Of a stretch of 64,000 nt of DNA, positions 9,124-63,471 are shown piece after piece. Below the pieces are notes generated by a model. That model was not told the origin of the DNA, ran no database searches, and saw only the letters and a list, made by a program, of their open reading frames with translations. Numbering within the stretch: the first letter of the stretch is position 1; the number at the start of each line of letters is the position of its first letter. Made by a program: the position numbers and the translations under genes. Source of the DNA: Clostridium sp. M62/1 (GTDB lineage Bacteria; Bacillota; Clostridia; Lachnospirales; Lachnospiraceae); the NCBI RefSeq assembly GCF_020736365.1, contig NZ_CP085988.1, positions 1,432,001 through 1,496,000 of the forward strand, given 5' to 3'.

Positions 9124-10711
9124 ACTAAAACTTCCCATACCTAAAATGGGATTCGTTCCTTGAAAATTCAATATTTCAGCTAACAAAATAGCGATTTATG
9201 CCGCTGCAGCTTCCAAATGGAGTGCTTTTCTCAGATATTCCGGCAATCTTGCTTCAAAATCAGCGGTAAAAGCATTCAGTTGCTCATCGCTTAGTTTAAA
9301 GATTCCCTGAAGACTTGCCATCAAGGCTTCCATCAGGATGCAAAGTGACCTGTTGAAAGTAATGTCTGCCATTTCATCAACAAGGAAGAAGAACAGTTCA
9401 CCAAGCGTTCTCTGATCTTCATTTTGGCGCTGCTCCATTGCAAGTAACATATATCGGGTAAACACGATCGCCACATGGGCTGTCAGTGCATCATAAGATA
9501 AACTGTGGCATTCTCCAACCAGATTCAGCATGGATTTGCAGGTTTTGAAAAAGACCTCGATCTGCCAGCGCTTTCCATAAATACGGATAATCTCTTCCTC
9601 GGAAAGTGTTGTAGCTGTACAGATAAAAGCAAGCCAGTCCTTGCGGTTTGCCTTGTTCCTTACGCATACGATTTTCGCCGGAATTGGATTCGCCTTTCCT
9701 ACCATAACATCAACAGAAAGCAGATACTTTGATCTGCCACGGCGCTTTTTGTTCCGGGAATAGATTTCTTTGATATTCAGCTGTTCACCACCGTACGAAT
9801 ATTTGATCCGGCTACTTTTCTTAATCATGGCAATCACATCCATGCCTTTTGCATGGATGGCTGTGACCTGTGCTGGATTGGAAAACCAGGAATCAAACAG
9901 GACATAATCCGCTTTCAGCCCTGCACTGAGGGCTGTATTCAGTAAAGTCATCATTGCCTCTGGTGCTTTTGTTTGGGCTAGCGCACGTCTTTTTCCTGCA
10001 AGGGTTCTGTTGTCAAAGTCCTTTACCGGGCCGATGATATTTGTATTCTTTGCAGACGCTAACAGGCAGCTGTTTACAGGGATCAGTGTGTTTCCATCAC
10101 TCCAGCTTAAAGTAAGCATCCTGAAGCCCTTTTTGAAATGCATATCCGTGTGGTCAAAAACTTTTGATCCCAGTTCCGTTTTCTTACAGCTGGTACGGTT
10201 GAAAAGGCTGTCATCAATGATAAAGACATTTTTTCTTTCCGGATCTGTCAGATCACGAATGTCATGATTGACAATATCAGCTGCAAGAAGAGAAGTAAAA
10301 CGAAGCCAGTTTGTTTTTGAAGAATTAAGGAAACGGTAGAAAGTGTTCTTGGAAAACGCCTCCTTAAAAGAGCCAGTCCGCTGCTGCATATACATACTTC
10401 TTCCGACAAAAATGTTGCTGAGTTTATAACGAAGCAGGGAAACAGATGAAACACCTTTTTCCTTCATTCCATTACATCTGGCAAGGAGCCTGCCAACATG
10501 ATGTTTGGAAAAAAATCTCTGAACACAGTCAATTAAGTCGTTCTCAACGAAATAGTTTTGTGGTATACTGGACATGGCATAAATCTCCTTTGTAAAGATG
10601 GTTTCTAGTCAATTCCATTATACCAAACGGAACAGATTTATGCTTTTTTTATTGGCTGAAATATTGAATTTTCAAGGATCAACGCACCAATATGGTGTGG
10701 GAAGTTTTAGT
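9124..10711 (-). mobile_element. IS4-family insertion sequence, copy 1
   Basis: The element is 1,588 bp. Its ends are inverted: ACTAAAACTTCCCA at 9124-9137 and the complement at 10698-10711. Farther in, CCTTGAAAATTCAATATTTC is also shared by both ends, so the terminal repeats are long and imperfect. It is flanked by AATTA at 9119-9123 and 10712-10716, a 5-bp target duplication. It is a passenger within the integrative element. A second copy begins at 63615 in the opposite orientation, with an end that matches this one base for base over the stretch I compared. Confidence 0.9.
9196..10575 (-). CDS. IS4-family DDE transposase
   Basis: This intact 459-residue transposase has the DDE catalytic triad of the IS4 family: the first Asp in FIIDDSLFNR (residue 121 or 122), the second in VLFDSWFSNP, and the Glu in the family signature Y-(2)-R-(3)-E-(6)-K, seen as YGKRWQIEVFFKTCK. 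The catalytic core is interrupted by the beta-strand insertion typical of the family. AAAGGAG precedes the start. It fills the insertion sequence between its terminal repeats and shows no frameshift, so it is probably active. The same protein starts again at 63751. Confidence 0.93.
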   Translation of the reverse strand: MSSIPQNYFVENDLIDCVQRFFSKHHVGRLLARCNGMKEKGVSSVSLLRYKLSNIFVGRSMYMQQRTGSFKEAFSKNTFYRFLNSSKTNWLRFTSLLAADIVNHDIRDLTDPERKNVFIIDDSLFNRTSCKKTELGSKVFDHTDMHFKKGFRMLTLSWSDGNTLIPVNSCLLASAKNTNIIGPVKDFDNRTLAGKRRALAQTKAPEAMMTLLNTALSAGLKADYVLFDSWFSNPAQVTAIHAKGMDVIAMIKKSSRIKYSYGGEQLNIKEIYSRNKKRRGRSKYLLSVDVMVGKANPIPAKIVCVRNKANRKDWLAFICTATTLSEEEIIRIYGKRWQIEVFFKTCKSMLNLVGECHSLSYDALTAHVAIVFTRYMLLAMEQRQNEDQRTLGELFFFLVDEMADITFNRSLCILMEALMASLQGIFKLSDEQLNAFTADFEARLPEYLRKALHLEAAAA

Positions 10712-10806
10712 AATTAAATTCATAATAAATGATTCAGATATAAATCAGAGGTGTACGTAAGTATGCCTCTTTTTATACTCAAAATAGTATCAAAAAACGT
10801 ATCATA

Positions 10807-11031
10807 ATCTATTTACTTTTTGACACAAGAGATTTGATTAGTCAGAGAACCAAGGAAGGACTAAAAGCAGCAAAAGCCAGAGGCAGAAATGGGGGAAGGC
10901 CATCTAAGCAAAATGAAAAAGGAGAAACAGTTCTATTGTTGTATAAGGGGGGGATGAAAATTGCGGACATCTGTAAGGAGACAGCATTGAGCAGAAGTAC
11001 AGTTAACCGGATTTTAAGAAATATTAAATAA
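10807..11031 (+). pseudogene. Serine recombinase C-terminal remnant
   Basis: The frame reads FDTRDLISQRTKEGLKAAKA, then RGRNGGRPSK and a Hin-type helix-turn-helix (MKIADICKETALSRSTVNRIL). This is the C-terminal end of a resolvase/invertase-family serine recombinase. The N-terminal catalytic domain with its nucleophilic serine is missing; the frame closes at 10804-10806. The IS4-family insertion lies immediately upstream, and the missing part may have been lost with it. It could still make a 65-residue DNA-binding peptide from the TTG at 10834, but this is unlikely. Confidence 0.75.
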
Positions 11032-11114
11032 ATAAGTATTGATACGATGCAAAAGAAGATTTAAAATAAGTTATGTTATATAGGTCTTTTCTCATCTGTT
11101 AGAAAGGATTTAAT

Positions 11115-12341
11115 ATGGGAAAAGATTTAAAAGGTAAAGAATTAGGAGTTGGAATCAGGCAAAAAGTAGACGGTATTTATTCTGCAAGATATGTAGATAA
11201 ATTTGGTAAGCGTAAAGAATTATATGATAGAAATTTGTCTTCTTTAAAAAGAAAACTAAACGAAGCCAAATATAATGATGCAATCGGGAATGTGATATTA
11301 GATGATTCTTTAACTTTATCTGTTTGGTTTGATAATTGGCTGGAAATCTATAAATACAATGTAATACGTGATAATACCAGAGTCTATTATAAACAGGTTT
11401 TTAAAAAGCATATTGAACCGCTATTAGGACATAAGAGGTTAAAAGACATAACACAGCTGCACATAAGGGCATTATTAAAAGAGTTAGATAAGCAGGGCTT
11501 ACAGTTTCAAACACAAAACAAAGTCAGGGTTATGTTGCTCGATATGTATAATAAAGCAATTCTTGACAATTATGCTGTTCGGAATCCTGCAAAAGGTATC
11601 AGGCTTCCAAAGCACAACAAAAGAAATAAAAGAGTATTTTCAGTGGAAGAACAGATAGATTTTTTTGATTGCTGTAAAGGTACATTTTATGATAATCTCT
11701 TTACTGTTGCCGTCAATACGGGACTGAGACAAGGTGAGCTATGTGCTTTAACATGGGATGATATTGATTTAGAGAAGAAAGAAATCAATGTAGAAAAGAC
11801 TCTGCTGTATCAGAAGTTAGAGGGAGATACCGGAAAGACATTTCATATTAATCCCCCAAAAACAAAAACAAGCAATAGAAAAGTTCCAATAAATAAACAA
11901 TGTGAAATTGCATTGAAAAAACAGTTGATTCAAAGAAATAATATTATCTCGAGGCAGTCAGCAAAGCCGGAAAAGGGGTTTGAAAATCTACTGTTCACTA
12001 CAAAATACGCAACGCCTATTTGTGACCAGATTCTAATTGATGCCATTAAGAAAATTGTAAACGAGATTAATTCAGTCAGAAGCGAGATTGAGCAGTTTGA
12101 AATGTTTACTCCGCATTGCTTTCGGCATACGTTTGCAACACGATGTTTTGAAGCCGGAATATCACCAAAAGTAATACAGACGTATTTGGGACATTCTACA
12201 TTACAAATGACAATGGATTTGTATACTTCCGTATTTAAACATTGTGAAGAGAAGGCAATCAGCAGACTAAGTGAATATTTTATTTCTCTGGAAGACAGCA
12301 GAGAAATAAATATTGAAAGAGAATTTGAAAAGCAGATATAA
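11115..12341 (+). CDS. int: Tyrosine integrase of the metA element
   Basis: The 408-residue integrase has three parts: an N-terminal arm-binding domain (about residues 1-60, GVGIRQKVDGIYSARYVDKFGKRKE) similar in style to Tn916 Int, a SAM-like core-binding domain (about 65-165), and a catalytic domain. The catalytic residues are visible as TGLRQGEL (Arg near 204), TPHCFRHTFATR (His-x-x-Arg near 334-337), YLGHST (His near 360) and LYTSVF (Tyr near 369). AGAAAGGAT precedes the ATG. It lies at the right end of the element, and its stop codon overlaps the right arm-type repeats. It should catalyse insertion into and excision from the 3' end of metA. Confidence 0.93.
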   Translation: MGKDLKGKELGVGIRQKVDGIYSARYVDKFGKRKELYDRNLSSLKRKLNEAKYNDAIGNVILDDSLTLSVWFDNWLEIYKYNVIRDNTRVYYKQVFKKHIEPLLGHKRLKDITQLHIRALLKELDKQGLQFQTQNKVRVMLLDMYNKAILDNYAVRNPAKGIRLPKHNKRNKRVFSVEEQIDFFDCCKGTFYDNLFTVAVNTGLRQGELCALTWDDIDLEKKEINVEKTLLYQKLEGDTGKTFHINPPKTKTSNRKVPINKQCEIALKKQLIQRNNIISRQSAKPEKGFENLLFTTKYATPICDQILIDAIKKIVNEINSVRSEIEQFEMFTPHCFRHTFATRCFEAGISPKVIQTYLGHSTLQMTMDLYTSVFKHCEEKAISRLSEYFISLEDSREINIEREFEKQI

Positions 12342-12360
12342 ATGGGGTAAAAATGGGGTA
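12340..12360. repeat. Putative integrase arm-type sites, right end
   Basis: Two exact copies of AAATGGGGTA at 12340-12349 and 12351-12360, 11 bp apart, match the pair at the left end (4023-4043). They overlap the stop codon of the integrase and lie 50 bp from the right attachment repeat. Confidence 0.6.
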
Positions 12361-12409
12361 GAGGGAAAAAATATGGGGGTAGTAAAGGTTGAAATTCCTG
12401 TAAATACAA

Positions 12410-12496
12410 GCAACGTGGCCAACACTCTCTACACCAACTGGCTGAATTTCTACGTATATCAGGTGACTCCGTATCTTTTGTCGGAGGATTGAGAAA
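12410..12496 (+). repeat. Right attachment repeat, attR
   Basis: This is the second copy of the 87-bp metA 3' end, one base different from 3849-3935. In an empty chromosome the sequence after 12496 would directly follow metA. Confidence 0.9.
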
Positions 12497-53077: not shown

Positions 53078-53535
53078 CAGAGAAGCAGATTAAAAATACG
53101 GGAAGCACAGGCTGCTGTAAGACAGAGTGCCATAGGAAAGAAAAGGAAAACTTTCAGGACAGGGATACATTTCTGAGAGTCTTTCCAGAGTATGGACTGG
53201 GGCGTTCGTCTTGCAGCAGCTTTTTTGATTCTGAAGAAACGGAAAAACATTTGGTTTGTTTGTGAAAAAATAAATAAAAATCTGAAAAAACAGGAAAATA
53301 ATCTTGTATTATATTGTGTAATCAGGGTGATATGTTATATAATTAAGAAAATAGTTGCTCTGCCTGTATACGGTTCGTATATTCTGCCTGGCTGAGAATA
53401 AGGTGGGCTGTTTTTAGCTCCTTCTGAGGAGGAAGAGGAGAAAATGGAAATATGTTAGCTGCGGCACAGCCAGAGTGGAATATGACAATATACACAGCGG
53501 AGCAGGCAGGCCATTTTGGCAGGAGGAGGTATCTT
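53078..53535. other. 458-bp intergenic region with long-loop terminator
   Basis: After the M42 stop there is a large stem-loop (53111-53226, listed separately). From 53250 to 53440 the DNA is A+T-rich with possible promoter elements (TATAAT-like strings near 53310 and 53337) before the next gene. A frame starting at 53192 is not supported. Confidence 0.5.
53111..53226 (+). terminator. Terminator with 84-nt structured loop, possible small RNA
   Basis: GCTGCTGTAAGAC (53111-53123) pairs with GTCTTGCAGCAGC (53208-53220; one G-T), followed by TTTTTT. The unusually long loop has an inner stem GGAAAG (53135-53140) with CTTTCC (53180-53185). It ends the M42 transcript, and a stable RNA from this region is possible. 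Confidence 0.6.
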
Positions 53536-54177
53536 ATGGAACATGCAATGATGAAAATTCGCGCAAAGAACACACATCTTCCGCTCAAGGCGGTTCCGGG
53601 ACATTTCGCAACGAATCACGCCCACATTAATTATTATATTGATATGACGACAGTGAAGGCCCGCCAGAGCGAGGCAGAGGAGATGGCAAAGACACTGGCA
53701 GGCCAGTATGTAAACAATACGGTAGTAGATACCATCGTATGTCTGGACGGAACCCAGGTTATTGGAGCTTATCTTGCAGAGGAGCTTTCCAGGGCCGGTT
53801 TCATATCAATGAATGAGCATAAGACGATCTATATCATTACCCCGGAGTTCAACAGCAACAGCCAGATGATATTTAAAGAAAATGTCAGGCCAATGGTGGC
53901 CGGGAAGCATGTGATTCTTCTGCTGGCAAATGTCACCACCGGCCTGACCCTCAATAAGGCGCTGGAGTGCATTGGATATTATGAGGGGATCCTGGAAGGG
54001 GTGGCCGCCGTGTTCAGCGCCCAGACGGAGGTGGACGGGGTGCATATCAACAGCGTGTATTCCACAGAGGATCTGCCGGACTACCGGTTCTACGATTACA
54101 GGAACTGTCCATTCTGTGAAAGAAAGATGAAAATTGATGCCCTGGTAAACAGCTTTGGGTATTTCAGGCAGGAATAG
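53536..54177 (+). CDS. Phosphoribosyltransferase-like protein
   Basis: The 213-residue protein resembles type I phosphoribosyltransferases such as orotate phosphoribosyltransferase. The PRPP-loop region reads VILLLANVTTGLTLNKALECIGYYEG, where the usual acidic pair before TTG is Ala-Asn, so PRPP binding may be altered or lost. FRAMES before it are AEEMAKTLAGQYVNN and IVCLDGTQVIGAYLAEEL. The C-terminus has two cysteines in NCPFCERKM. I start at 53536 after AGGAGGAGGT. It precedes cas3 by 27 bp on the same strand, so it may read into the CRISPR-Cas operon. A real link to CRISPR is not shown. Confidence 0.7.
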   Translation: MEHAMMKIRAKNTHLPLKAVPGHFATNHAHINYYIDMTTVKARQSEAEEMAKTLAGQYVNNTVVDTIVCLDGTQVIGAYLAEELSRAGFISMNEHKTIYIITPEFNSNSQMIFKENVRPMVAGKHVILLLANVTTGLTLNKALECIGYYEGILEGVAAVFSAQTEVDGVHINSVYSTEDLPDYRFYDYRNCPFCERKMKIDALVNSFGYFRQE

Positions 54178-54204: not shown

Positions 54205-56481
54205 ATGTGCCGGGAGACGAAGCGGAGGTTTCTGGCCCATATCAGTGAAGATGGGAAACGTGAGCAGACAATTTTGGAGCACCTGGAGGGAACGGGAAGG
54301 CTGGCAGAGCAGTTTGCAGAAGTATTCGGATTCGGAAGTTATGGCTATGCTTTGGGGAAACTGCATGATATAGGAAAGTATTCCTTTGAATTTCAGAAAA
54401 GGCTCACGGAAAATGGAAAAAAAGTAGATCATGCCACTGCCGGAGCCAGGCTGTGCTGGGAGCAGAAAGGGCCCTACAGTCCGTATGGAATGCTTGCCTA
54501 CGCAGTGGCTGGACACCACAGCGGCCTGCCCGATACAGGCGGAGATGGGGACTTAGCTGGAAGGGGAACATTGAAAGGGAGAATGAAGAAAAAACTCTGC
54601 AGCTTTGAGGAGTACCGAAAGGAAGTTGACTTTCCTGCCCTTTCTGCTCCCACAAATTTCAGGGGAACAGACAGAGGGGAGGATCCGGGATTTGCCCAGT
54701 CTTTTCTAATTCGGATGCTGTATTCCTGCCTGGTAGATGCGGATTATCTCGACACGGAAGCATTTATGAAGGAAAAAGTGGAGAGGGATTCCGGCGAAAA
54801 ACTGGAATCCCTTTTAAAAAAGCTGGAAAAGCACGTGTCGGGCTGGCTGGATAATCACGACAGGAGGACCGTCAACGGGAGAAGAAGTGAGATTTTGAGG
54901 CAGTGCCTTGAGAAAGGAACGCTCCCTCGTGGTCTGTTTCGGCTGACAGTACCCACCGGAGGAGGAAAAACCATATCTTCCCTGGCCTTTGCTCTCCGCC
55001 ATGGCGCAGAGCACGAGATGAAGCGGGTGATCTACGTGATCCCGTATACAAGCATCATCGAACAGAATGCTAAAATCTTCAGCGACATTCTGGGAAGAGA
55101 GAATGTGCTGGAGGATCACTGTAATATCGACTATGAGAGTGATGAGGAACTGAAACCGCTTCACCTGGCGGCTGAGAACTGGGACAAGCCTGTGGTGGTG
55201 ACGACGAATGTCCAGTTTTTTGAATCCCTGTTTTCCAATAAGTCATCAAAGTGCAGAAAACTCCACAATATAGCGGACAGCGTGATCATATTTGATGAGG
55301 CACAGATGCTGCCCTGCGAGTACCTGAGGCCCTGTATCGCTGCGATGGAGGAATTGCTTTTGAGGTACAGGAGTACGCTGGTACTCTGCACAGCGACACA
55401 GCCGGCCCTCGGCGGCCTGTTCAGAAAAAGTATAACGTGGGAAGAGTTGTGCCCCGATCGCGAGGAGCAGTTTCAGTTTTTTAAGCGCTGCCAGATACTT
55501 AATCTCGGAAGAATCCGCAGGGAGGAGCTGATTGACAGGCTGGAGCAGGAAGACCAGGCACTTTGCATCCTGAATACAAAGCGGGAGGTTCAGGAGGTCT
55601 ATCAGGAGCTGAAGGAGAGAAGAGGACAATCATCGGAAGGAGAGATTTTTCACCTTTCAACCCAGATGTATCCGGAGCACAGGAAGGCGGTTTTGGAGGA
55701 GATACGGAAACGGACAGGGAAAAGGGCAGAAGGAAAATCTCAGATTGAGAAAACTGGGATTGAGGAAGAAACAGAAGAGACAGAATCTGCAGGGAATGTC
55801 TGCATTGTGATTGCGACGAGCCTGGTGGAGGCTGGAGTGGACCTGGATTTTGCATCTGTGTACCGGGAAATGGCAGGTCTCGACTCGGCCATACAGGCGG
55901 CCGGGCGCTGCAACAGGGAGGGGAAACGCCCCCTGGAGGAGAGCAGAACCTGGATTTTTGATATGGAGGGGGAAAAGAAAACCGCAGAACAGGAACAGAG
56001 GGCCGAGGTGATGAGCGGAATGCTGGAGAAGCTTGAAAGGGCAGGAAAAAGCCTGAATTCCCCGGAGGCAGCGGAAGAATATTTCCGCTATCTGTACCAG
56101 TTTAAGGGAAGTGAGCTGGACAGAAAACATATAATGGAATATTTCCACCCGGGAAATTTCAGCTTCGCCTCTGCCGCTCAGGAATTTAAGATGATCGAGG
56201 AACACACAGTATCTCTCCTGATACCGGTCGAGGAGAGTGCAGAAAAAATTGCGGAGGAAATCCGTTTAAAAGGCTGCAGCAGAAAGCGGATGCGTGAGGC
56301 GGGCAGGTACAGTGTGAGCGTAGACAAAAAGAAAATAGAAGAGTTCTGCCGAAACGGCATTGCTGAGCTATTGACCGAAGGGGAAGAAGACGGATTGTAC
56401 CTGCTGAAGAGGAGAGAGCAGTATTCGCAGGAAGTCGGACTCCTGATGGAGGTGGAAACAGGAAAGGCATTTTTGATGTAG
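54205..56481 (+). CDS. cas3: Cas3, type I-C nuclease-helicase
   Basis: The 758-residue protein has an N-terminal HD nuclease domain: HLEGTGRLAEQFA, LHDIGKYSFEFQ (His54-Asp55), KVDHATAGA and AGHHSGLPDTG. The SF2 helicase domain follows with Walker A PTGGGKT (about residue 250), the DEAH-box variant DEAQ in VIIFDEAQMLPCE (about 363-366), CTATQPAL and motif VI QAAGRCNREGKRP (about 562). Cas3 is recruited by Cascade to unwind and degrade target DNA. The start at 54205 has GGAGGA upstream. A strong terminator follows it, so the downstream cas genes need another promoter. Confidence 0.95.
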   Translation: MCRETKRRFLAHISEDGKREQTILEHLEGTGRLAEQFAEVFGFGSYGYALGKLHDIGKYSFEFQKRLTENGKKVDHATAGARLCWEQKGPYSPYGMLAYAVAGHHSGLPDTGGDGDLAGRGTLKGRMKKKLCSFEEYRKEVDFPALSAPTNFRGTDRGEDPGFAQSFLIRMLYSCLVDADYLDTEAFMKEKVERDSGEKLESLLKKLEKHVSGWLDNHDRRTVNGRRSEILRQCLEKGTLPRGLFRLTVPTGGGKTISSLAFALRHGAEHEMKRVIYVIPYTSIIEQNAKIFSDILGRENVLEDHCNIDYESDEELKPLHLAAENWDKPVVVTTNVQFFESLFSNKSSKCRKLHNIADSVIIFDEAQMLPCEYLRPCIAAMEELLLRYRSTLVLCTATQPALGGLFRKSITWEELCPDREEQFQFFKRCQILNLGRIRREELIDRLEQEDQALCILNTKREVQEVYQELKERRGQSSEGEIFHLSTQMYPEHRKAVLEEIRKRTGKRAEGKSQIEKTGIEEETEETESAGNVCIVIATSLVEAGVDLDFASVYREMAGLDSAIQAAGRCNREGKRPLEESRTWIFDMEGEKKTAEQEQRAEVMSGMLEKLERAGKSLNSPEAAEEYFRYLYQFKGSELDRKHIMEYFHPGNFSFASAAQEFKMIEEHTVSLLIPVEESAEKIAEEIRLKGCSRKRMREAGRYSVSVDKKKIEEFCRNGIAELLTEGEEDGLYLLKRREQYSQEVGLLMEVETGKAFLM

Positions 56482-56493
56482 AAAGAAGGAAAA

Positions 56494-56530
56494 GAGGGAG
56501 AGGGGGCCGAATGGCCCCCTCTCCCTTTTC
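56494..56530 (+). terminator. Strong terminator directly after cas3
   Basis: GGGAGAGGGGGCC (56496-56508) pairs perfectly with GGCCCCCTCTCCC (56513-56525) across GAAT, followed by TTTTC. It lies 13 bp after the cas3 stop, inside what is normally a single cas operon. Confidence 0.85.
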
Positions 56531-56552
56531 ATAAATAAAACTGGAAAAAAAT

Positions 56553-56594
56553 ATTTCAATCCACGCCCGGTATCGGATAAGAATGCTGAGCGAC
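56553..56594 (-). CRISPR. Single degenerate type I-C-like repeat
   Basis: On the minus strand this 42-nt stretch begins GTCGCTC and ends GGGCGTGGATTGAAAT, like the two ends of type I-C repeats, which are about 32 nt. The middle (about 19 nt) is longer than in a normal repeat and does not show the standard stem. No second repeat is found on either side. It could be the remains of an array, or a degenerate repeat of the kind used by Cascade-guided regulatory RNAs. Confidence 0.5.
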
Positions 56595-56650
56595 ATAGAT
56601 ACCATAACACAAGAAGCGGTGAAAAAAAAGAGTTAATGGCAAAAATCAGA

Positions 56651-56678
56651 TTGACTTAAAAAGAAAAAGTGATATGAT
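56651..56678 (+). promoter_or_regulatory. Promoter of the gene between cas3 and cas5
   Basis: TTGACT (56651-56656) and TATGAT (56673-56678) are 16 bp apart. With the terminator after cas3, this makes the inserted gene an independent unit, and it could also drive cas5 to cas1. Confidence 0.65.
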
Positions 56679-56759
56679 AGAAATACAAATAGTTTTATAA
56701 ATAAAAAAGAAAAAAATGAAGTTAAATATTGATTTACCGAAGAAAGAAGGGTTTTACTA

Positions 56760-58165
56760 ATGCAGATCTATTCAGCAATTTTTCCTGTGAAGGAATCTTT
56801 AACTCAGGATGTTTTAATTCAATTAGTAATTGAATGGAATCAAGGAAGTCCTTTTAATAAAATTTCTAATTTAAATTGGGATGGAAAAAAAGAAATATAA
56901 AATTTGAAGATGAAAATTTATCTTTATCCATTGAGGAAATCCGTGCTTATAATACAATTGCTGTGAGATTTCATCAGTTTGATGAAAATAAGATTATATG
57001 GAATACGGATATTGTTGTGAATTTTTCCACACATATTTTCTCTATCAAATTAGACAGGGAAACAACTGTTGATACAATTAGTTTCATTCCCAAATTCAAA
57101 CCGCCGATTCTTGTTAATATGCTGCTGGAAAGGGGATATATAGGAACTGATAAGGACATGCCCATAAGTGATAAGCCGATTTTCATTAATAAAGATAACT
57201 ATAAAGTAATAGAAAATATTATATGTAGAAATGTTGTATATTCGATGCCTGTGATCTATGTAACGAAACTATGGGGGAATTATCCTTTAAGAGTTCAGGA
57301 CTTAGCATATAAATTGCGCGGTGTTGCACATGTTCTTGCGGAGGATGATGCAGATGTGTCAAAGATTCTCAGAGAAAGCTGCGATGGGATGAATTCACAT
57401 CATGGAAGTATCGGCATTTATTACCCAAGCAGTTCGGCATTGAATAAAATAATTAGCACCAAAAACTATGAAGAACGGGAGGAAGTACTGATAGAGCGCG
57501 TAGTAAATATTGTATGCAGATATGTTAATCAACAGGCTAGGGACAGGATGATGACCTGGGAGGGCGTTCAGAATGAATTGCTGAAATTACGTTATGTAAG
57601 AGCTAAAGAAAAGAAAGAAAAAGCGGAGAGCGAAGTATCTGAGATTTATGATAGTTTTGGAGAGGAACTCGAAGAAAAGGAACATACCATTGAAGAGTTA
57701 AATAATCGAGTTATGGCACTGCAGGCAGAAAACCAGGGACTTAGAGCAAAATATGATCAGATTACAGAAATTCCTCTGTTATACTACGGCACGGAAGATG
57801 AATTGTTTGAGGGGGAAATAAAAGATCAGATACTGGGAATGCTTAGTAATCAACTGAAGAATATAAAAAAGAAGACTCGAAAGGAAGATATATTACAGGA
57901 TATTTTGAAATCTAATAAGTCGACAGATGTTTTAAATAAAAAACAGGCAGAGATTAAGCGTATATTAAAAGGTTATACGAAGGTAGATGATCATTTAAAA
58001 AGGGAGTTAAAAACATATGGTTTTACCATTACAAAAGATGGGGGACATTATAAGCTCACATATAAAGGGGACTCCAGATATTTGTTTACGTTATCAGCAT
58101 CAGGAAGTGACAGCCAGCATGGAGGTGGGAATCTTGCGGCGGAGATTATTCAGGATATGCTTTAA
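56760..58165 (+). pseudogene. Unknown protein inserted between cas3 and cas5, frame broken in an A7 run
   Basis: The first frame starts at 56760 (MQIYSAIFPVKESLTQDVLI) and stops at 56900. The second frame goes on from the A-run at 56885-56891 to 58165. One extra A, or a -1 slip on A-AAA-AAA, joins them as WDGKKRNIKFEDE, giving a protein of about 468 residues. The N-terminal half has LAYKLRGVAHVLAE and GSIGIYYPSSSAL; the middle (about 260-300) is coiled coil; the C-terminus (VDDHLKRELKTYGFTITKDGGHYKLTY) resembles a HicA-like RNA-binding fold. No catalytic motif was recognised. It is richer in A+T than the cas genes. Position suggests a defence or CRISPR-accessory gene. Confidence 0.6.
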
Positions 58166-58303: not shown

Positions 58304-58966
58304 ATGGCAAAAGGAATCAAAGTACGGGTGTGGGGAGATTATGCTCTTTTTTCGCGGCCGGAGATGAAGGTAGAACGGTGCACCTACGATGTGATGACAC
58401 CCTCTGCCGCCCGGGGCATATTGGAGGCAATCTACTGGCATCCTGGCCTCAGATGGAAAATTGACAGGATTTATGTCAAGAAGCCCATTCGCTTTACCAG
58501 CGTCAGAAGAAATGAGGTGAAAAGCAAGCTGTCTGCGTCTAATGCTCTTTCCGTTTACAATGGAGCGAAAAAGGATCTCTACATCAGCACGAAAGCCGAT
58601 ATTGTTCAGAGGGCGTCACTGATTTTAAAGGATGTAGAATACGTGATAGAAGCCCATTTCGAGATGACGCAGGATGCCAATGAAACAGACAACCCGGGAA
58701 AGTTTAAGGACATTGTAACCAGAAGACTCAATAGAGGGGAGTGTTTTCATATGCCCTATTTTGGATGCAGGGAGTTTCCCGCCTACTTTGCTCCCTGCGA
58801 GGAGGAAGTAATTTCCACTGCCTATGAGGGGGAGGAGGAAAGAGATTTGGGATATATGCTTTATGATATGGACTATTCCGATCTGAAAAATATCCAGCCC
58901 ATGTTTTTCAGGGCCGTATTAAGGCGGGGAGTGCTGGATGTAAAAGACTGTGAGGTGGTACGGTGA
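58304..58966 (+). CDS. cas5c: Cas5c (Cas5d), type I-C
   Basis: The 220-residue protein is the type I-C Cas5, which cuts pre-crRNA in place of Cas6 and holds the 5' handle. It begins MAKGIKVRVWGDYALFSRPEMKVERCTYDVMTPSAARGILEAIYWHPG, the diagnostic N-terminal pattern, and has VRRNEVKSKLS and FHMPYFGCREFPAYF later. I start at 58304, with AAAGGAG at 58289-58295. It overlaps cas8c by 4 bp. No strong promoter was seen directly before it. Confidence 0.93.
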   Translation: MAKGIKVRVWGDYALFSRPEMKVERCTYDVMTPSAARGILEAIYWHPGLRWKIDRIYVKKPIRFTSVRRNEVKSKLSASNALSVYNGAKKDLYISTKADIVQRASLILKDVEYVIEAHFEMTQDANETDNPGKFKDIVTRRLNRGECFHMPYFGCREFPAYFAPCEEEVISTAYEGEEERDLGYMLYDMDYSDLKNIQPMFFRAVLRRGVLDVKDCEVVR

Positions 58967-60741
58967 TTTTACAGGAGCTTGTAAAGTATTATGAAAGGCT
59001 GGCAGAGCAGGGGAAAGTATCAAAACCAGGCTGGTGCAGCGCAAAGGTATCATACTGCCTGGATCTGAGACCGGACGGGACAGTGGCCAGAGTGATTTCC
59101 TGTTTGAAAGAGGAAGAACGCGGTAAAAAAAAGGTTCTGGTTCCCCAGGATTTTACTGTGCCGGCCATGGTTTCCCGTTCCTCAGGCATTGCCCCGAATT
59201 TTCTCTGTGACAATTCTAAATACCTTCTGGGAATAGACAAAAATGGTTCGGGAAAGCGGCTCAGAGAGTGCTTTGAGGCAGCTAAGAACAGGCATCTGGA
59301 AATTCTCGACGGCGTTTCCGGAGAAGCCGCAGAGGCTGTCTGTGCGTTTTTTAAGAGCTGGGACCCGGATAAGGCAGCGGAAAATCCTGTGATTAGTGAA
59401 AAGTGGGAGGAGCTTACAGCTGGTGGAAACCTTATCTTTTCCGTTGGGATGGATGAAGCCCAGAAGGATGAAAGTATCCGGTGCGCCTGGGAAGAAAGCC
59501 AGAATAAAAAGGGAGAAGGGGAAGAAAAAGCCGGGGTTTGCCTTGTGACAGGAAAGAGGACAGAGATCGCAAGAATTCACAATACGATCAAGGGAGTTTC
59601 GGGTGCACAGTCCAGCGGTGCGGCTCTGGTATCCTTCAATGCAGATTCATTTACTTCCTACGGGAAGGAACAGAGCTACAATGCACCAGTGGGAATCTAT
59701 GCGGCCTTCGCCTATACGACGGCTCTCAATTATCTTCTGTCCCAGCGCAGATATGTGTTCCAGTTGGGAGATGCGACTGTGATTTTCTGGTCTGAGAGCG
59801 GAGAAGAAGCCTACCAGCAGGCGTTCTGGATGGGAATAGAGGCCAGAGAGGACGATCAGGAAAAGCTCAGGGAGCTGTTGGAGGCGATGCAGAAGGGCAG
59901 ACCTGTGGCGATAGATGACATTTCTCTGAATCCCGAACAGAGTTTCTGCGTCCTGGGACTGTCGCCGAATGCGGCGCGGCTGTCTGTGCGTTTTTTCTAT
60001 AAGGACAGCTTTGGCAGTATTCTTACCAATCTGAAACGCCACTATGAGCAGATGGAGATTGTCCGGCCTTCCTGGGACAGGACAGAATATCTGAGTGCAG
60101 GAAGAATGCTGTATGAAACGGCTAATCAGAAGTCCCGTGACAAAAAAGCACCGCCGAATATGGCTGCTGCCGTTTTCGAATCGATCCTGTCGGGAGCGAA
60201 ATACCCGGAAAGCCTTTACTCCAACGTGCTCATTCGGATACGGGCCGAGAACGGTGCAGGAAAAGTGACAAGGGGACGGGCTGCTATTATCAAGGCCTAT
60301 CTCATACGAAATAAAGAGGAACGACTGATAAAGGAGGGAACATTTGTGAGGGTAAATGAGTCCTGCGTCGACACAGCCTATGTGCTGGGACGCATATTTG
60401 CAGTGCTGGAGGAAATTCAGGAGAAGGCGAATCCAGGCCTGAACAGCACAATTAAAGACAGATATTTTAATGCTGCCTGCTCCAGGCCGCAGCTGATTTT
60501 TCCCACGCTTTTCAAGCTGGAGAGCAGCCATATCAGAAAGCTGGAGGACAGAGCTGCCATTTACTATGAGAGACAGCTTACAGAACTTCAAGGGATGCTA
60601 CAGGCAGAGAAGGGAGAAAACGGAATAAGGGAAAAGGCAAAATCCTATCCGGCCAGCCTGAATCTGGAAGAGCAGGGGGCGTTTATTCTGGGGTACTATC
60701 ACCAGGTTCAGAAGAGATATACGAAAAAGGAGGATAAATAG
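58963..60741 (+). CDS. cas8c: Cas8c (Csd1), large Cascade subunit
   Basis: The 592-residue protein is Csd1/Cas8c, the PAM-reading large subunit of type I-C Cascade. It starts at a GTG in the GTGA overlap with cas5 and reads MILQELVKYYERLAEQGKVSKPGWCSAKVSYCLDLRPDGT. Other family segments are GVCLVTGKRTEIARIHNTIKGVSGAQSSGAALVSFNADSFTSYGKEQSYNAPV and FCVLGLSPNAARLSVRFFYKDSFG. The C-terminal part is helical, and in I-C loci it may also yield the internally translated Cas11 small subunit. The stop is directly followed by the cas7 start. Confidence 0.95.
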   Translation: MILQELVKYYERLAEQGKVSKPGWCSAKVSYCLDLRPDGTVARVISCLKEEERGKKKVLVPQDFTVPAMVSRSSGIAPNFLCDNSKYLLGIDKNGSGKRLRECFEAAKNRHLEILDGVSGEAAEAVCAFFKSWDPDKAAENPVISEKWEELTAGGNLIFSVGMDEAQKDESIRCAWEESQNKKGEGEEKAGVCLVTGKRTEIARIHNTIKGVSGAQSSGAALVSFNADSFTSYGKEQSYNAPVGIYAAFAYTTALNYLLSQRRYVFQLGDATVIFWSESGEEAYQQAFWMGIEAREDDQEKLRELLEAMQKGRPVAIDDISLNPEQSFCVLGLSPNAARLSVRFFYKDSFGSILTNLKRHYEQMEIVRPSWDRTEYLSAGRMLYETANQKSRDKKAPPNMAAAVFESILSGAKYPESLYSNVLIRIRAENGAGKVTRGRAAIIKAYLIRNKEERLIKEGTFVRVNESCVDTAYVLGRIFAVLEEIQEKANPGLNSTIKDRYFNAACSRPQLIFPTLFKLESSHIRKLEDRAAIYYERQLTELQGMLQAEKGENGIREKAKSYPASLNLEEQGAFILGYYHQVQKRYTKKEDK

Positions 60742-61641
60742 ATGAGCGAGGCAATTAAAAACAGATATGAATTCGTGGTATTATTCGATGTGGAAAACGG
60801 AAATCCAAACGGAGATCCAGATGCAGGCAATATGCCGAGAATCGATCCGGAGAGTAATTTTGGACTTGTGACGGATGTGTGCCTGAAGCGGAAAATACGA
60901 AATTATGTGGAAACAGTAAAAGAGGGGGAGGAAGGATACGGAATTTATATCAGAGAAGATGTGCCTCTCAACACAAGTGACAAGAAGGCATTATCCTATA
61001 TCGGAGTCGAAGATTTGAGCGATAAGGGGCTTAAGGAATTAAAGAAAAATGATCCGGAAGCGGACAAAAAAATCAGAGATTTTATGTGCCGGAATTTCTT
61101 TGACATTCGGACCTTCGGGGCAGTCATGACGACCTTTGTGAAGGCATCTTTAAACTGCGGGCAGGTGAGGGGACCTGTGCAGATTGGTTTTGCCAGAAGC
61201 ATTGACCCGATTGTGAGTCAGGAGCTCACCATAACCAGAGTGGCGATTACCACAGAGGAGGACTCGCTGAATAAAAAGACGGAGATGGGAAGAAAAAATA
61301 TTGTCCCATATGGCCTGTACCGGGCAGAGGGATTTATCTCTGCAAACCTGGCTAGAAAGGTGACAGGATTTTCAGAGGAAGACCTGGAACTTTTGTGGGA
61401 AGCGATTATCAATATGTTTGAGCACGATCATTCCGCAGCAAGAGGGAAAATGGCCGTCCGCAGGCTGATTGTGTTTAAACACAGCAGGGAGCTGGGAGAC
61501 TGCCCGTCGTACAAACTGTTTGATGCTGTTGAGGTAAAGAGAAAGGAAGGGGTGGAATTTGCAAGGCAGTATTCAGATTATGAGATAGCAATTCACAGGG
61601 AGCAGATTCCGGAAAGCGTTGAAGTGATGGACAAGATTTAA
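60742..61641 (+). CDS. cas7c: Cas7c (Csd2), Cascade backbone
   Basis: The 299-residue protein is Csd2/Cas7, which lines the crRNA as the multi-copy backbone. The family opening is NRYEFVVLFDVENGNPNGDPDAGNMPRIDPESNFGLVTDVCLKRKIRNYV. The thumb region and the glycine-rich end (NIVPYGLYRAEGFISANLARKVTGFSEEDLELLWEAIINMFEHDHSAARGKM) match type I-C. It starts immediately after the cas8c stop. A 139-bp gap with an eight-pair hairpin (GCGGCAGA with TCTGCCGC, near 61724-61757) separates it from cas4. Confidence 0.95.
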   Translation: MSEAIKNRYEFVVLFDVENGNPNGDPDAGNMPRIDPESNFGLVTDVCLKRKIRNYVETVKEGEEGYGIYIREDVPLNTSDKKALSYIGVEDLSDKGLKELKKNDPEADKKIRDFMCRNFFDIRTFGAVMTTFVKASLNCGQVRGPVQIGFARSIDPIVSQELTITRVAITTEEDSLNKKTEMGRKNIVPYGLYRAEGFISANLARKVTGFSEEDLELLWEAIINMFEHDHSAARGKMAVRRLIVFKHSRELGDCPSYKLFDAVEVKRKEGVEFARQYSDYEIAIHREQIPESVEVMDKI

Positions 61642-61780: not shown

Positions 61781-62443
61781 ATGGAATACAGGGAAGAGGA
61801 TTATCTGATGATTTCCGGGATTCAGCATTTCAGGTTCTGCAGAAGACAGTGGGCAATCATCCATATAGAGAAGCAGTGGGAGGAAAATGTCCATACTGTA
61901 ACTGGAGAATTGATGCACAGGAAGACCCATGATCCCTATCTGGCAGAAAAGAGAAGAGATGTTCTGATCAGCAGAGCCCTTCCGGTACATTCCCGGTCAC
62001 TGGGGGTGAGCGGCGAGTGTGATACGGTGGAATTCAGAAAATCAGAGAATGGAATCAAGCTGCATGGCCATAGGGATCTCTATGAAATTTATCCGGTAGA
62101 ATATAAGAAGGGAAGCCCGAAAATTACAGAGGAGGACCGCCTTCAGCTTACCGCTCAGGCCATGTGCCTGGAGGAAATGTTTTCTGTAAATATTGCTGAG
62201 GGGGCTATTTTTTACGGGGAAACAAGAAAACGGGAGGCTGTGACGTTTACAGATGAGCTGCGAACAGAAGTGAAGGAAATGTTTGAGGAAATGCATCAGT
62301 ATTACAATCGCGGTTACACTCCGAAGGTTAAATGGAGCAAAAGCTGCAATGGCTGCTCTTTGAAGGACATCTGTCTGCCAAAGCTGGGAAAGGCACAGTC
62401 AGTAAAAGCATATATCAGCCAGGCAGTTGGGGAGGAAGAATGA
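61781..62443 (+). CDS. cas4: Cas4, PAM-selecting exonuclease
   Basis: The 220-residue Fe-S nuclease takes part in adaptation with Cas1 and Cas2, trimming and orienting new spacers. It has ISGIQHFRFCRRQWAIIHIEKQW with the first cluster Cys, a RecB-type nuclease centre (GHRDLYEIYPVEYKKGSP with the ELK-like YKK and Asp, and QLTAQAMCLEEMF) and the remaining cysteines in SCNGCSLKDICLP. Its stop overlaps the cas1 start as ATGA. Confidence 0.94.
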   Translation: MEYREEDYLMISGIQHFRFCRRQWAIIHIEKQWEENVHTVTGELMHRKTHDPYLAEKRRDVLISRALPVHSRSLGVSGECDTVEFRKSENGIKLHGHRDLYEIYPVEYKKGSPKITEEDRLQLTAQAMCLEEMFSVNIAEGAIFYGETRKREAVTFTDELRTEVKEMFEEMHQYYNRGYTPKVKWSKSCNGCSLKDICLPKLGKAQSVKAYISQAVGEEE

Positions 62444-63471
62444 GAAGGCTTTTAAATACATTGTATGTCACATCAGAGGACAGCTATCTGGCTCTGGATG
62501 GAGAGAATATTGTGGTACTTACAGGTGAACAGGAGGCTGGCAGGCTTCCGCTTCATACGCTCGAATCGGTGATTTCCTTTGGATACCGGGGTACAAGCCC
62601 TGCCCTTATGGGAGCGTGTGCAGAGCGGGGAATCTCTCTTTGCTATCTGACGCCCCAGGGTAAATTTCTGGCAAGGGTAAGCGGGAAAGTTAAGGGCAAT
62701 GTACTGCTGAGACAAAGGCAGTTTGAGAGCAGCAGAAATGATGAGGAGAGCCTTGCAATTGCGAAAAACTGCATGATTGGAAAGGTACATAATGCCAGAT
62801 GGGTGCTGGAGAGAGCCATAAGAGATCACGGAATGCAGATAGATGCAAAAAAGGTGAAAGAAGTATCCCTGCACTTAAAGGAGAGTCTGAAATGCATAGA
62901 AAGAAGCAAGACAAAGGAAGAGCTGAGAGGTCATGAGGGAGAGGCGGCTGCGGCGTATTTCGGCGTATTTGATGAGCTGATCCTTCAGCAGAAAAAAGAG
63001 TTTTTCTTTCAAGGGCGCAGTAAAAGGCCGCCTATGGATAATGTCAATGCACTGCTGTCCTTCGTCTACACACTTCTTGCCAATATGATTTCTTCGGCTC
63101 TCGAGTGTGTGGGCCTTGATCCCTATGTAGGGTATTTTCATACGGATCGTCCGGGAAGGGCATCTCTGTCCTTTGACATAATAGAGGAGTTCCGGCCGGC
63201 GCTGGCAGATCGCTTTGTATTGTCGCTGATTAATAAAAAGCTCGTAAACGGAAAAGGGTTTAAGAAGAAAGAGAACGGAGCGGTTATTATGACGGATGAT
63301 ACAAAACGGATTGTACTGACAGAGTGGCAGAACAGGAAAAAAGAGACACTTACACATCCGTTTCTTAAGGAAAAAATAGAATGGGGAATGGCACCTTACG
63401 TCCAGGCATTGCTTCTGGCCAGATATCTGAGAGGAGATTTGGATGGTTATCCGCCTTTTTTATGGAAGTAG
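62440..63471 (+). CDS. cas1: Cas1, spacer integrase
   Basis: The 343-residue type I-C Cas1 begins MRRLLNTLYVTSEDSYLALDGENIVVL. The catalytic region has ELRGHEGEAAAAYFGVFDEL with the first Glu, LECVGLDPYVGYFHTDRPGRASLSFDIIEEFRP with the His, and the Asp near the end of that segment. It forms the integrase with Cas2. The frame is intact. The gene that follows, cas2, seems to be interrupted, so new spacers may no longer be acquired. Confidence 0.95.
   Translation: MRRLLNTLYVTSEDSYLALDGENIVVLTGEQEAGRLPLHTLESVISFGYRGTSPALMGACAERGISLCYLTPQGKFLARVSGKVKGNVLLRQRQFESSRNDEESLAIAKNCMIGKVHNARWVLERAIRDHGMQIDAKKVKEVSLHLKESLKCIERSKTKEELRGHEGEAAAAYFGVFDELILQQKKEFFFQGRSKRPPMDNVNALLSFVYTLLANMISSALECVGLDPYVGYFHTDRPGRASLSFDIIEEFRPALADRFVLSLINKKLVNGKGFKKKENGAVIMTDDTKRIVLTEWQNRKKETLTHPFLKEKIEWGMAPYVQALLLARYLRGDLDGYPPFLWK

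Follow-up and report, generated by a model that had tools for sequence, protein, structure and literature searches.

The closest described systems are CreTA, CreR and CrePA, the last of which was reportedly described by Shu et al. in 2025. CreA, the RNA of CreTA in H. hispanica, has one degenerate repeat, a spacer-like tail and a terminator (PMC8501985, PMC9458426). According to the parts of this work drawn on here, it pairs at nucleotides 1-5 and 7-11 beside TTC, and the 6th and 12th nucleotides are left unpaired (PMC8501985). CreTA is known from type I-B haloarchaea, and reportedly also from type I-F Acinetobacter (PMC10097628). CreR, a cas-regulating RNA, reportedly occurs in types I-B, I-E and V-A (PMC13131331), and the portions of the papers used here describe it as Cascade feedback on its own cas promoter in other subtypes (PMC13131331, PMC12737573). 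In the same portions, CrePA appears as a protein effector that is silenced by a CreA-like guide with Cascade and released by anti-CRISPRs, and its effector CreP typically has a KilA-N domain (PMC12737573).

Here we analysed a stretch of 64,000 nucleotides (the window) in which a type I-C operon is interrupted between cas3 and cas5. We propose, from sequence and at roughly two chances in three, that the interval holds a CRISPR-guided expression switch, in which a defence-type cargo gene would be repressed by Cascade and released when Cascade is disabled. The inserted gene is best seen as cargo.

The interval between cas3 and cas5

The cas genes of the window form a type I-C operon; all have strong profile scores, and the calls are certain:

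54205..56481, plus strand, cas3 (type I-C; PADLOC Cas3c, E 2e-221)
58304..58966, plus strand, cas5 (Cas5c), by profile match
58963..60741, plus strand, cas8c, by profile match
60742..61641, plus strand, cas7, by profile match
61781..62443, plus strand, cas4, by profile match
62440..63471, plus strand, cas1, by profile match

The gene upstream of cas3 (53452-54177) has a weak phosphoribosyltransferase match, under the Pfam cut-off. Just past the window end (G000:C1:1495751-1499073), cas1 is followed by two identical tandem transposase genes and a Cas2 frame. The array comes next (G000:C1:1499.2-1502.3 kb), and its 32-nt repeat, GTCGCTCCCCTCGCGGGAGCGTGGATTGAAAT, is present in more than 46 copies. 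The open part of the Cas2 frame has 74 residues (Pfam Cas2, E 2.4e-17), and its start is missing at the point where the inserted DNA ends. Since the start of Cas2 is lost, spacer acquisition may be impaired in this genome, whereas the Cascade genes are whole.

The interval between cas3 and cas5 contains 1.8 kb of additional DNA. Its gene has a GC content of 0.347, compared with 0.45-0.51 in the six cas genes and 0.476 in the window, which confirms the A+T-rich coding DNA that an earlier, sequence-only reading had placed here. That reading had also assumed a protein of about 468 residues. This length is true of the family (a database search found 185 relatives, and 77 of the 120 listed have exactly 468 residues), but the window copy is frameshifted and its frame is discontinuous:

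56760..56900, plus strand, initial fragment of the gene, with 46 codons before the stop at 56898-56900, corresponding to residues 1-49 of the relative P0001 (86%)
56876..58165, plus strand, second piece, a 429-residue open reading frame in another frame, HEC-07-related, with a coiled coil and a HicA-like C-terminus

The closest relative among the 120 matches listed of the 185 is 99% identical. The family is therefore a genuine one with intact members in other genomes, whereas the window copy is broken. The break sits within a run of A, and it may be a real frameshift, a homopolymer assembly error or a slippage site.

Between cas3 and the promoter-like site of the inserted gene, we found a solitary degenerate CRISPR repeat that the sequence-only reading had overlooked; it lies outside the array and adjoins cas genes, as is typical of CreA and CreR. 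The elements of this region are as follows:

56495..56526, strand not assigned, strong 14-pair hairpin that resembles a terminator on the minus strand and would there end the guide transcript (transcript fold)
56518..56552, minus strand, spacer-like part of the guide, assigned a length of 35 nt, with 26 nt before the 14-pair hairpin and 22 nt free in the fold
56553..56594, minus strand, degenerate CRISPR repeat of 42 nt, its ends identical to the array repeat (also supported by RNA fold)
56601..56609, minus strand, possible extended -10 box (TGTTATGGT) for transcription of the guide, its end lying 6 nt ahead of the repeat
56651..56678, plus strand, promoter-like site TTGACT-16-TATGAT with TG upstream (promoter scan)
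56683..56717, minus strand, predicted guide target with a TTC PAM at 56718-56720 (minus strand), over the expected transcription start

Read from 56594 to 56553, the repeat consists of GTCGCTC, 21 diverged bases, and then GCGTGGATTGAAAT. Its first 7 and last 14 nt are those of the 32-nt array repeat, and the middle is diverged and longer. The 3.9-Mb genome has 47 copies of the 14-base handle; 46 belong to the array, and the single copy outside it is in this degenerate repeat. The -10-like box with TG 6 bases before the repeat and the hairpin 26 bases behind it make a small transcription unit plausible. Among the 12 loci looked at, a candidate -10 hexamer is preceded by TG in 8 and lacks the TG in the other 4. 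The guide RNA was predicted to fold into a short stem ending exactly at the start of the 11-nt handle. A stem of 4 or more pairs that closes at the handle can be formed by 15/15 elements versus 48% of shuffles, and one of 5 or more pairs by 7/15 versus 24%, which is a modest result.

The sequence-only reading had given the gene its own promoter and a strong terminator in front. The promoter-like site is there, but such matches in the stretch are no more frequent than chance (7 in the region versus 7.3 expected). The strong hairpin is there too, but the terminator scan scored it on the minus strand only; judging from its stem and TTTT tail, it would also end the cas3 mRNA on the plus strand.

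Cargo of related junctions and relatives of the gene

Related cas5 genes were found in 75 of 397 genomes of the window's family (the window genome included), at 76 places. We fetched 53 cas5 loci, four of them from other families of the same order. They comprised 40 of the 41 best cas5 places after the window and 13 later additions (four from the same list, including the one skipped, and nine others); further searching yielded no additional place. L092 and L138, which lack an upstream cas3, were excluded, and this gave 51 junctions beyond the window. The gap between cas3 and cas5 was below 100 nt in 29 of these, 100-330 nt in 11, and above 1 kb in 11.

Nine of the 11 large inserts carry the same two genes, encoding a DUF3990 protein and its partner. 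The pair of L081, which was the one tested, corresponds to the PADLOC candidate defence pair PDC-M10A/PDC-M10B (E 5e-80 and 1.5e-69), and it recurs in eight more junctions and in L055. The large insert of L102 encodes a Schlafen/AlbA_2 protein. L107 has an insert of 1.87 kb encoding a 566-residue protein, ATPase-like by eye, with no recognisable guide repeat; this is possibly a second route into the same slot. At L085 the first PDC-M10 gene is broken near its start and the guide repeat is unrecognisable, as if the module were decaying together. In the 123-nt gap of L093, a plus-strand repeat-like sequence lies directly before cas5, in the orientation opposite to the others.

A second HEC-07-like gene was found in the slot of Ca. 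Mediterraneibacter excrementigallinarum, on two contigs (L060:2529-2996 and L055:1320-2266), where it is split by an IS66-like element (identified by eye) and carries a frameshift. In L055 the PDC-M10 pair and then cas5 lie behind it. Together the two contigs suggest that a single species has cas3, a broken HEC-07-like gene, the PDC-M10 pair and cas5 in this order. The insertion noted by the sequence-only reading recurs as a HEC-07-like homologue in one more species; the slot cargo otherwise varies. A repeated link with cas genes, the absence of which that reading had named as part of a refutation, is present both in this homologue between cas3 and cas5 and in the other candidate defence genes that use the slot.

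A guide was recognised in 15 loci: 9 of the 11 junctions with large inserts, 4 of the 11 with intermediate gaps, and also the window and L060. We found no recognisable guide in the two other large inserts (L085 and L107) or in seven of the 11 gaps of 100-330 nt. All 13 guide-bearing loci taken from genomes belong to the same family as the window, and L060 comes from a species of the Lachnospiraceae as well.

These junctions bear on the alternative that survives best, which we nevertheless regard as unlikely: the element serves pure CreR-like autoregulation of the cas effector genes, whereas the inserted gene came along by accident, is decaying and draws no benefit from repression. Four loci (L080, L095, L096 and L098) have a guide and a target in a cas3-cas5 gap of 231-319 nt with no cargo seen, as this explanation would have it. 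The HEC-07-like genes found in the slot are broken in both cases (the window and L060/L055), so that HEC-07-like cargo may be in the course of being lost; the breakage fits a costly product and, equally, a passenger being lost. However, the PDC-M10 pair occupies most of the large inserts as well as L055, and both of its frames are open in 8 of the 9 large inserts concerned (six by the list of open reading frames, with L126 and L127 stop-free, and L085 broken). This speaks against a mere passenger.

To place the inserted gene in a wider context, the six cas proteins of the window were compared by tblastn (E 1e-5) with the flanking DNA of 55 loci of its relatives in public genomes. Only two loci, L060 and L055, had cas genes in the flanks covered, and the absence of a cas match at the other 53 indicates that the gene is mostly free-standing. 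In L026, a prokaryotic Argonaute (10260-12494; PADLOC pAgo, E reported as 0) lies directly after a HEC-07-like gene, and in L020 (Streptococcus) a relative of the gene is positioned behind methyltransferase-type genes. Distant homologues were found on 10 plasmid records, 8 of them typed mobilizable. Five Klebsiella plasmids of 5.9 kb (e.g. NZ_CP028803.2) carry a 26% relative over 96% of the query, annotated as a hypothetical protein.

Alternatively, the gene might act in defence on its own, under a separate promoter, having settled in the cas operon as in a defence island, and the repeat might be unrelated to its control. Most relatives away from cas genes, the pAgo and methyltransferase-type neighbours and the plasmid homologues agree with this explanation. 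We consider it improbable, since guide-target pairing is conserved at the junction across unrelated cargo.

No Pfam family was above the cut-off for the window protein or P0001, and a sequence search of solved structures gave nothing better than E 0.14. The PADLOC HEC-07 profiles (PDLC04161 and PDLC04158) provide a likeness, matching 15 of 22 relatives (E up to 1; best 1.7e-13; about residues 9-320). In contrast, the window protein and P0001 had no HEC-07 match at E 1, and the PDLC04161 model exceeds the relatives in length by about 85 residues. We did not find the term HEC-07 in the free-paper literature searched, and the main text of the PADLOC paper, in the part consulted, names Hma and contains no word starting with HEC (PMC8565338).

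The HicA-like C-terminus proposed by the sequence-only reading is supported indirectly. In an AlphaFold2 model (66-sequence, pLDDT 84.9), the C-terminal elements run helix-strand-strand-strand-helix, and His430 is invariant in the 66 sequences together with 17 other residues; HicA has an alpha-beta-beta-beta-alpha fold and a catalytic His. With E values up to 1 counted (best 6.6e-7), PHROG_2053 matched all of the 22 relatives. The PADLOC HicA-like profile matched only two distant relatives (E 2e-4 and 5e-3, among 10 proteins), and none of another set of 22 relatives.

Three roles had been offered for the protein. A separate defence gene comes nearest, given the HEC-07 matches and the relatives without cas neighbours, but the guide seemingly regulates it. 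For an accessory effector we found no support. Nor did we find any for a regulator of Cascade; the sequence suggests the reverse, that Cascade probably regulates the gene.

Pairing between guide and target

To compare guides across loci, we searched junctions longer than 100 nt for the motif RTTTCAAYCC, which was picked after the first examples. The guide of L080 is one base off this motif; it was spotted by eye and is kept outside the 14-locus statistics. The start of each spacer was set by the handle, and the best TTC-flanked site 20-270 nt downstream was scored at bases 1-5 and 7-11.

Own pairs matched at 130 of 140 core positions over the 14 loci, and 12 loci scored 9 or 10 of 10; L080, as a fifteenth locus, scored 10/10. 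Swapped spacer-target pairs reached at least 9 in 10 of 182 cases. None of 100,000 permutations attained the sum of 130 (the largest was 118), although the 14 loci are related, so the permutations overstate independence. When the flank was varied, 12 loci scored at least 9 beside TTC, one beside TGA, one beside GAA, and none beside the other 61 trinucleotides. When the spacer was shifted by 1-4 nt, sums fell to 69-84, and one locus reached at least 9, in one of the eight offsets. Mismatches were found at position 6 in 11 loci, at position 12 in 12 and at position 18 in 10, about chance level, and the unscored positions 13-17 matched in 48 of 70 cases and mismatched in 22. The spacers and targets vary among loci while the match is kept, which looks like selection on pairing. 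Taken together, this pattern is the published CreA signature (PMC8501985).

The window pairing is the second weakest of the 14 loci, with a core score of 8/10 (L084 is the weakest, with 7/10). Spacer bases 1-9 match the target, and bases 10 and 11 are mismatched. Taken alone, the match is modest and T-rich: shuffled window spacers reached 8/10 in 17% of trials, and nine contiguous bases in 0.5%. That the repeat is merely left over, without function, from a former array, with the promoter match a product of chance in A+T-rich DNA, would be consistent with these shuffles, but we consider it very improbable, and for the group of loci largely refuted, because it is opposed by the controls run on the 14 loci (permutation, swapped pairs, PAM and offset), the 46 array spacers reach at most 7/10 of the core or 5 contiguous bases in the same promoter region, and the longest PAM-adjacent match among the 3,073 TTC sites of the 64-kb window falls on this promoter.

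Proposed mechanism and comparison with known systems

We propose that a short minus-strand transcript begins at the degenerate repeat and ends at the hairpin behind cas3, and that Cas5c would process it into a crRNA-like guide. The guide would bring Cascade (Cas5-Cas8c-Cas7) to its target beside TTC, where the promoter begins. By analogy with published CreA work, the pairing is probably too short for Cas3 cleavage, so that Cascade would only block transcription. The target promoter is predicted to drive the cargo gene, and read-through would extend its transcript into cas5-cas8c-cas7 and the genes that follow. Between the end of the cargo and cas5 lie 16-26 nt in six PDC-M10 loci and 138 nt in the window, an operon-like spacing that suggests one transcription unit, and the terminator scan of the window found no plus-strand terminator between the inserted gene and cas5.

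In cargo-free loci, the same arrangement would act as CreR-like feedback on Cascade's own effector genes. Where cargo is present, the gene would stay silent under active Cascade and be made once Cascade is inhibited, titrated or lost, for example through an anti-CRISPR. The released cargo may then serve as a second line of defence or cause growth arrest.

A broader version of this proposal, which we favour by a little over even odds, is that the junction is a standard 'cargo bay' of Lachnospiraceae type I-C systems. Here a promoter autorepressed by Cascade would carry exchangeable back-up immune genes (HEC-07-like, the DUF3990 pair, Schlafen/AlbA), and loss of Cascade would switch on a second defence together with more Cascade. 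If true, CRISPR-guided self-regulation would extend to subtype I-C of gut Lachnospiraceae, and one guided promoter would be a slot for exchangeable protein effectors, as opposed to one dedicated toxin. This would explain why unrelated candidate defence genes are found between cas3 and cas5, and would give the PDC-M10 and HEC-07-like proteins a testable trigger, namely loss of Cascade activity. It also predicts that phages with I-C anti-CRISPRs should set off the slot genes. We found no description of such a slot in type I-C in the free-paper literature, and a prior mention is possible in the original CreR and CrePA papers.

Compared with CreTA, as the consulted parts of the sources describe it, the guide-bearing loci as a group share with CreA a degenerate repeat and a spacer-like tail between cas genes, and pairing at positions 1-5 and 7-11 beside 5'-TTC to a promoter (PMC8501985, PMC9458426). 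However, the repressed gene of CreTA is a small toxic RNA, whereas the window and its sister loci carry protein genes and belong to subtype I-C; in addition, the target promoter region at the I-C junction also precedes cas5. All cargo seen was protein-coding, of about 150 to 480 residues (566 in L107). We rejected identity with CreTA because the cargo is a protein.

The likeness to CrePA, so far as the available text of that work goes, lies in a protein effector proposed to be silent under a CreA-like guide and Cascade. The difference is that CreP typically has KilA-N, and the I-C slot cargo scanned is without it: no KilA-N domain was among the Pfam matches of the window protein, the best 25 of 61 families in 22 relatives, or the three other cargo proteins scanned. 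On these scans, CrePA as described was rejected.

With CreR, in the portion of the literature used, the locus would share the guiding of Cascade to a promoter of its own cas genes, a description that the four cargo-free junctions fit. It differs in its subtype (I-C), in its position at the internal cas3-cas5 junction, and in the genes inserted behind the promoter in most of the 15 loci. By analogy, the best reading is that the slot works like CreR and CrePA.
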